Assembly (NCBI GenBank): GCA_021108275.1
Contig: JAIORD010000005.1
Span: forward strand, 62,001-126,000
DNA: 64,000 nt
Origin: Methanococcoides sp.
GTDB lineage: Archaea > Halobacteriota > Methanosarcinia > Methanosarcinales > Methanosarcinaceae
Direction of reading: 5' to 3'
Shown: piece by piece, positions 13,131 through 27,363 of the stretch
Position numbering within the stretch: position 1 is the stretch's first letter
Layout: the number at the start of each line of letters is the position of its first letter
The notes under the pieces: generated by a model
What the model saw: the letters and a program-made list of their open reading frames with translations, nothing else
Databases searched by the model: none
What the model was told of the DNA's origin: nothing
Made by a program: the position numbers and the translations under genes

Positions 13131-13217
13131 GGGATACTAAAAGGAAGGATAGTTTATCAATTTATAGCAAGAAGACCACCGATTTTAATCTCGCATTAAA
13201 TCGAAGATTTAATGGGA

Positions 13218-13240
13218 GTTTCATTTCATGGAAATGAAAC
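13218..13240 (+). repeat. Perfect inverted repeat at left end of the TnpB element
   Basis: GTTTCATTTC-atg-GAAATGAAAC, ten paired bases. Subterminal palindromes like this are what TnpA recognises in IS605-type elements. A second hairpin lies just left of it at 13194-13214. Confidence 0.6.
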
Positions 13241-13329
13241 AGGTGGATGAATTGCGTTGTTTTTTTAATCATTAAATATTTTCATACATGTACGAAAAAT
13301 ACTTAAATGACACTTATGTATAATAAAAT

Positions 13330-14421
13330 GTGAAAAAGAACTATAAGTTCAGGTTACACCCTACCAAAAAACAGGAAATCGCATTCATTCGGATTCTTAA
13401 CTATTGTAGACACATTTACAATGAGTTCCTGGAAGATAGGCGGAATGCCTATCATAGATGTGGATAGGGTATACATACCGATGAACAGGTTCGACAGGTA
13501 CGGTTCTTAGAAACTGATATTGAAATATATTCTCAGGTCAAGCAGGATATTCCACGAAGACTGGGTAAATCAATGGATGCATTCTTCAGGCGAATTACCA
13601 ATGGAGAGAAACCTGGGTATCCACGTTTCCAGGGTAGGAACAGGTACAACAGTTTCACGTATCCACAGGCTTCGAACGGCAGTGTGAAGTTTGTCGATGG
13701 TAAACTTAAACTCGCTAAACTCGGTACAATTAAGATAAAACTTCACCGTGAGATCGAAGGCAAGATTAAGACATGCACGATCAAACATGAAGGTGATCAG
13801 TGGTATGCGATCTTTTCGGTTGATCTGGGGAGAGCACCACGAAAAGTTGTACCCCAAACATCAGTCGGGATTGATGTGGGACTGACATCCGTGATTTCCT
13901 TGAGTAATGGTGAACAGGTCAATCCGCCTAAGTTTTACCGTAATGCTGAAAAGAAGCTCGCAGTCCAGCAACGTAGGTTAAGCAAAAAACAGAAATATTC
14001 GAATAACTGGAAGATACAATGTAAAGTTGTGTCAAAGATACATCAAAAAGTCGCTAACCAGAGGAAAGATTTAAATCATAAACTGAGCCGTGATTTGGTC
14101 AATGATTATAATCTGGTCGTGTTTGAGGATCTTAAGATCAGGAACATGGTCAAAAATCATCATTTAAGTAAATCCATTCACGATGCGTCATGGGGTCAAC
14201 TTATTCAAATGACAAAATACAAAGCGGAAGAAGCTGGTAAACATGTCGAGTTGGTTAACCCATATAATACGTCACAAACCTGCAGTAATTGTGGGAACAT
14301 TGTCAAAAAGGGATTGAGTGTACGCATCCATACCTGTCCGCATTGTGGACTCGTGTTGGATCGGGACGTTAACGCAGCCATTAACATTTTGAATTTAAGC
14401 ACCGTAGGGACTACGGGATGA
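13330..14421 (+). CDS. tnpB: TnpB RNA-guided nuclease with in-frame amber codon
   Basis: 363 codons from GTG 13330 (VKKNYKFRLHPTKKQE, the normal TnpB start), interrupted by TAG at codon 46 (13465-13467): ...HRCG-TAG-GIHTDEQVRQV... A frame starting at 13573 would lack the N-terminal 81 residues. RuvC residues look intact: GIDVG (about 180), FEDL (about 264), DRDVNAA (about 343), and the zinc ribbon C-x2-C ... C-x2-C (CSNCG, CPHCG). TnpB is a DNA nuclease guided by an omega RNA from the element's right end. In Methanosarcinaceae UAG can be read as pyrrolysine; one change AAG to TAG would explain it. Otherwise the gene is a nonsense pseudogene. Both readings remain open. Confidence 0.8.
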
Positions 14422-14496
14422 GCCTGTGGAGTCACGTCCGTTGGGATGGGCTATGAAGCAGGAAGCCACCCATTTTAATGGGTGGTAGTTCACAAA
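14350..14496 (+). ncRNA. Probable omega RNA (reRNA) region of the TnpB element
   Basis: In IS605 elements the guide RNA scaffold spans the 3' end of tnpB and the right end, with the guide taken from flanking DNA. Here the segment holds the end of tnpB, a GC-richer stretch (tagggactacggg) and the right-end hairpin 14466-14485. Borders are by analogy; the guide would be the host DNA following 14496. Confidence 0.35.
14466..14485 (+). repeat. Right-end hairpin of the TnpB element
   Basis: CCACCCATT-tt-AATGGGTGG, nine pairs, just before the likely element end. Typical subterminal palindrome of IS605-type right ends. Confidence 0.65.
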
Positions 14497-14580
14497 TGAA
14501 CCTTTTGAGATACCATGCCATATTATTCATATACTTTAATCGTGTAGAATAGTTGGTCATTGCATTTACGAGGTTATCAT

Positions 14581-26637: not shown

Positions 26638-26669
26638 TAATTATTAAATAAAAATTGGAGGAAATGAAT

Positions 26670-26936
26670 ATGTTATACATGGAAATCAGTACTTGGGAAC
26701 CAGAGAAACGTGATCTTATACTTGAACACTTTAAAGAGCTAAAGATGCCTGCAGGAGTAAAGGTCCACGATCAATGGATCGATCTCACGGGATCTCGATA
26801 TTTTATCCTATATGAGTGCGACGATGCAGAGGCTTTTGCAAAATTCAACCTTCCATGGTCGGATGTATGCTACATTGAGACTGTCCCTGTAATGAAATCA
26901 ACCGAGTTCATATCACTAATGAGCAGAAAAAGCTGA
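26670..26936 (+). CDS. DUF3303 family protein, copy 1
   Basis: 88 residues from ATG 26670, chosen because GGAGG lies eight bases before it and the second copy begins in the same place. Compact ferredoxin-like or dimeric alpha-beta barrel pattern: MLYMEISTWEPEKRDLILEH, VKVHDQWIDLTGSRYFILYE, FNLPWSDVCYIETVPVM. Function not established for the family. About 85 percent identical to the next gene, so a recent tandem duplication. Confidence 0.8.
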   Translation: MLYMEISTWEPEKRDLILEHFKELKMPAGVKVHDQWIDLTGSRYFILYECDDAEAFAKFNLPWSDVCYIETVPVMKSTEFISLMSRKS

Positions 26937-27096: not shown

Positions 27097-27363
27097 ATGT
27101 TATATATGGAAATCAGTACTTGGGAACCAGAGAGTCGCGATCTCATACTTGAACACTTTAAAGAAATAAAAATGCCTGCAGGGATAAAGGTCCACAATCA
27201 ATGGGTCGACCTCACAGGAGGCAGATTTTTTATCCTATATGAGTGCGACGATGCAGAGGCTTTTGCAACATTCAACCTCCCATGGTCAGATGTGTGCTAC
27301 ATTGAAACTGTTCCTGTAATGGGATCAACCGATTTCATGTCAATAATGAGCAAAAGGAACTGA
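27097..27363 (+). CDS. DUF3303 family protein, copy 2
   Basis: 88 residues, near-identical to copy 1 (changes such as EKRD to ESRD, SRYF to GRFF). Its ribosome site is GTGGGG, weaker than the GGAGG of copy 1. Own leader hairpin and shared downstream terminator. The two copies may be expressed from separate promoters, since 160 bases of leader-like DNA lie between them. Confidence 0.8.
   Translation: MLYMEISTWEPESRDLILEHFKEIKMPAGIKVHNQWVDLTGGRFFILYECDDAEAFATFNLPWSDVCYIETVPVMGSTDFMSIMSKRN

Follow-up and report, generated by a model that had tools for sequence, protein, structure and literature searches.

The window analyzed here is a 64,000-nucleotide stretch of a Methanococcoides sp. genome (GenBank assembly GCA_021108275.1, contig JAIORD010000005.1, positions 62,001 to 126,000 of the forward strand). 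It carries a transposable element of the IS200/IS605 type, the tnpB gene of which contains a single internal stop codon, a TAG at codon 46, whereas the other 362 codons are open. The coding part of the element is organized as follows (positions are those of the window).

13330 to 14421, plus strand: tnpB, 363 codons, with a GTG start and a TGA stop
13465 to 13467, plus strand: in-frame TAG at codon 46, probably read as pyrrolysine, aligning with Lys48, a REC-domain residue of ISDra2 TnpB
13573 to 14421, plus strand: first open reading frame (ORF) after the TAG, 282 amino acids, relevant if the TAG is a true stop; lacks the WED β1 strand and most of the REC domain, with domain limits taken from PMC10097598

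The homology of the window tnpB continues past the in-frame TAG, as seen in the translation, in Pfam matches, and in the alignment of homologues. Both the OrfB_IS605 domain (PF01385) and the Cas12f1-like TNB domain (PF07282) are found in the portion 3′ of the TAG. The acidic residues of the RuvC site (D182, E266, and D346) and the zinc cysteines (C318, C321, C336, and C339) are invariant in 19 homologues including the window copy. A first interpretation of this DNA, made from the letters alone (the sequence-only reading), had named the TAG as the sole defect of the gene, and the otherwise open frame with its intact RuvC and zinc residues bears this out. We infer that the window TnpB would be active as an RNA-guided nuclease.

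The closest structural reference is ISDra2 TnpB (PDB codes 8BF8, 8EXA, and 8H1J), with which the window TnpB aligns over its whole length (E 1e-57). Both share the RuvC acidic and zinc residues, a right-end RNA, and the logic of a transposon-associated motif (TAM). The differences are the motif itself (TTGAT in ISDra2, TTTAT beside the window element), Lys48 in place of the TAG at codon 46, and the absence of tnpA from the window element. In ISDra2 TnpB, Tyr52 makes contact with the TAM, and its counterpart in the window protein follows residue 46 by four positions. TAM reading in ISDra2 TnpB depends on the WED β1 strand and on REC residues (PMC10097598).

Close homologues from this and other genera carry CAA or CAG (Gln) at codon 46, with one ATA (Ile), and TAG is found at this codon in two further genomes, G030 and G035. 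More distant TnpBs often have Lys or Glu at the position. The AAG that the sequence-only reading expected in close homologues is thus not found there, Lys being confined to the more distant copies, and a recent change from AAG to TAG was rejected. A lysine derivative such as pyrrolysine is chemically plausible at residue 46 and should fit, because Lys occupies the position in distant TnpBs and in ISDra2. A search of named genomes and viral contigs for close relatives returned only distant TnpBs.

Single stops also occur elsewhere in tnpB. One copy in G009 (L066:569-1645) has a single TAG at codon 55 (Lys in relatives), and one in G005 (L067:503-1570) has a single TAG at codon 301 (Trp in close relatives). 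By eye, the single-stop copies comprise about four with TAG, four with TAA, and one or two with TGA, too few to judge an enrichment of TAG.

The host appears equipped to decode UAG. The pylS gene lies on the same contig as the window tnpB, with a tRNA-Pyl of anticodon CTA adjoining, and the ORFs after pylS read as pylB, pylC, and pylD, names that derive from gene order and sequence only. In our labeling, G000 is the window genome, G001–G010 belong to the same genus, and G030 and G035 belong to another genus; pylS is present in 11 of 11 genomes of the genus. An absence of pyl genes, which was to disprove the sequence-only reading, is thus not observed.

TAG is also rare as a terminator. None of 55 ORFs in the window ends in TAG, which speaks against in-frame TAGs being a frequent chance event here, and in a 224-kb sample of the window genome (ORFs of at least 100 amino acids, n = 185) only five do, whereas 18% would be expected from the share of TAG among stop trinucleotides. 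Three of these five have a Pfam domain across the TAG (a dimethylamine methyltransferase, an AlbA_2 protein, and a histidine kinase). In a 120-kb sample of G030, homology continues beyond the TAG in both TAG-ended ORFs, one for a RuBisCO-like protein and the other for a GNAT acetyltransferase. Because TAG is rare at ORF ends and at least three TAGs lie inside conserved domains, we take UAG to be mainly a pyrrolysine sense codon in the window genome.

Individual loci illustrate how such codons are placed. A sensor histidine kinase of the window genome (L093:3960-5744, G000:C4) has an in-frame TAG within its HATPase domain and is a candidate pyrrolysine protein. On the minus strand of G000:C1 (L088:18030-19988), an AlbA_2 domain is split by a TAG, and the Pfam match spans the codon. 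A RuBisCO large-chain homologue in G030 (L097:7417-8838, G030:C18) carries a TAG at about residue 371, after which the catalytic domain seems to resume.

The two other genomes with TAG at codon 46, G030 and G035, share a 1.66-kb element of tnpA and tnpB, 96.7% identical between them and with an intact-looking tnpA. Because the same element sits at unrelated sites in both genomes, it has moved while bearing the TAG, unless each copy gained the TAG separately. After codon 46, their tnpB genes differ by 17 synonymous and 16 nonsynonymous changes, corresponding to a ratio of nonsynonymous to synonymous rates (dN/dS) of 0.25–0.41 (p 0.0001–0.01 over transition biases of 1–8). This signal of purifying selection 3′ of the TAG argues that such TAGs are translated; it could possibly also reflect selection on a truncated G030 protein translated from an internal start codon. 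The tree requires two gains of TAG at codon 46, the TAG in G030 and G035 being independent of that in the window. A single inherited TAG common to both genera was rejected (single clade, approximately unbiased test, p-AU 9e-7).

We consider it probable that codon 46 is read as pyrrolysine and that full-length TnpB is made; this was also the sequence-only reading of the TAG, and it is the likeliest of those that we weighed. The element is a structurally complete TnpB-only insertion, and its host, a methanogen of the Methanosarcinaceae, encodes pyl genes; UAG would rarely or never terminate there and would be read by tRNA-Pyl. The TAG would then amount to a missense change, probably from Gln or Lys to pyrrolysine, within a REC-domain loop, and a full-length RNA-guided TnpB would be produced. 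Both the decoding at codon 46 and the identity of the inserted residue are deduced from sequence. The TAG in tnpB appears to be a routine result of the expanded genetic code of the host rather than a special switch.

Several observations weigh against insertion of pyrrolysine. The organism encodes a normal full-length archaeal release factor aRF1. Of the five TAG-ended ORFs of the sample, a hydantoinase carries the codon where two domains meet, and in another, L090, the TAG looks like a true terminator. G002 (3/138) and G035 (2/123) have just as few TAG-ended ORFs, but with short extensions, and TAG may still end a few genes in these two genomes. From all these cases, TAG may be ambiguous, or some of the ORFs may be spurious. 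The tnpB copy of G035 has a separate frameshift. Finally, sister species lack the insertion, and the otherwise intact frame could also reflect nothing more than a recent origin of the TAG.

A young nonsense mutation is indeed the main rival. UAG would terminate, only a 45-residue peptide would be made, and the gene would be a young pseudogene. TnpB decays often, as TAA, TGA, or frameshifts in further tnpB copies of these genomes show, and the insertion is lineage-specific, with no close relative to serve in a test for selection. We nonetheless regard this outcome as unlikely: TAG is hardly a stop in the window genome, the same TAG persists under selection in the mobile relative, and UAG readthrough in a Methanosarcina acetivorans reporter reached 20–30% even where UAG also terminates (PMC2933860). 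Further nonsense changes in other strains, which were to count against the sequence-only reading, are not seen; other species of the genus have no decayed copy at the site, which six of them have empty. If UAG did stop translation, a shorter TnpB might still arise from the ATG at 13573 (codon 82), which opens the 282-residue ORF, and the G030 copy has an ATG five codons after its TAG. The window product, however, would be without the WED β1 strand and the REC residues that serve TAM reading in ISDra2 (PMC10097598), and no in-frame ATG, GTG, or TTG lies between the TAG and codon 82, which makes such a start scarcely credible.

The opposite extreme is that the codon was selected as a switch that couples the nuclease to the supply of pyrrolysine or keeps the element in pyl hosts. 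TAG arose at the same codon independently in two genera, each time with Ile for Leu two residues later, and the position is close to the counterpart of the TAM-contacting Tyr52. However, two random single-step gains of TAG would coincide in ∼2–5% of cases before any bias to tolerant sites, and in more if only tolerant sites are open to them, which leaves the coincidence suggestive only. Further tnpB copies have their TAG at different positions (codons 55 and 301), Gln is kept in most close copies, and unrelated genes carry TAG as well, so that we regard a selected switch as very improbable. The sequence-only reading had proposed a nuclease active only when pyrrolysine is available. This is not supported: TAG looks like a general, if rarely used, sense codon, found also in the histidine kinase and the AlbA-domain protein, so that nothing marks TnpB as specially regulated. 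That pyrrolysine was favored twice independently at the REC loop, with synthesis or TAM reading dependent on pyrrolysine and the element confined to pyrrolysine-using hosts, is very unlikely.

Reportedly, as described by Kivenson and colleagues in Science in 2025, “Pyl code” archaea read all TAG codons as pyrrolysine. The window genome resembles such archaea in that TAG is scarce at gene ends and occurs as a sense codon also outside the proteins of methylamine use, and the window tnpB would be one more gene of this kind. The window tnpB also resembles the amber-containing transposases of M. acetivorans and Methanosarcina mazei, likewise mobile-element genes of pyl-bearing methanogens with an in-frame TAG, which in those transposases is conserved among copies (PMC2933860 and PMC3639795). 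IS605, OrfB, and TnpB are not mentioned in PMC3639795, and Methanococcoides burtonii copies of the amber-transposase family were reported without the amber codon (PMC2933860). A literature search on TnpB and pyrrolysine found no relevant text. The window tnpB is a new example of a known phenomenon. If the reading is true, its product would be a candidate first example of an RNA-guided nuclease that contains genetically encoded pyrrolysine. TAG-bearing tnpB copies in pyl-bearing methanogens should not automatically be dismissed as pseudogenes, and the mobile pair in G030 and G035 offers a direct way to test the translation of such codons.

The remaining features of the element are the following.

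13153 to 13157, plus strand: TTTAT motif (TAM) immediately to the left of the element; most copies inspected have it at the corresponding position
13158 to 14493, plus strand: whole TnpB-only IS200/IS605-type (IS1341-like) element of 1336 bp, delimited by empty sites and by ends that match paralogous copies
14340 to 14493, plus strand: probable guide (omega) RNA scaffold, from its RNA fold, which overlaps the 3′ end of tnpB as well as the right end of the element, with the terminal hairpin CCACCCATTTTAATGGGTGG
14494 to 14513, plus strand: expected guide segment, with AAATGAACCTTTTGA as its first 15 bases, from the match to empty sites beside the TAM position

The flanks of the element are contiguous in six genomes of the same genus (G001, G002, G003, G004, G007, and G009), which represent clean empty sites. 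In these sister species, the empty sites read TTTAT, CATAT, or CTTAT, followed immediately by AAATGAACC. The right end of the element terminates in GTAGTTCAC, and paralogous copies have matching ends on both sides. The insertion adjoins the TAM without a target duplication, as seen from the empty sites and the TTTAT motif. The gap between the neighboring gene and tnpB is too small for a tnpA. The right-end RNA is structured and folds better than shuffled sequence (-54.4 kcal/mol, z -2.85), and its terminal hairpin is retained in homologues in which the bases have changed. The match of AAATGAACCTTTTGA to empty sites beside the TAM would follow if the vacant site is the target of the guide RNA. 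An Rfam search of the element gave no match near a gathering threshold.

Both flanks are also present in G006, G010, and G005, where they lie 0.5–2.5 kb apart with other sequence between them (G006:C1:3206-5689, G010:C8:339523-341020, and G005:C1:426068-426606). The site, interrupted in these three sister species, may be one of repeated insertion. A paralogous tnpB of the window genome (L018:568-1625, G000:C9) has a frameshift near codon 130. Elsewhere in the window, two small adjacent ORFs (26655-26936 and 27097-27363) have the N-terminal stretch MLYMEISTWEPE in common and are likely a tandem duplication.
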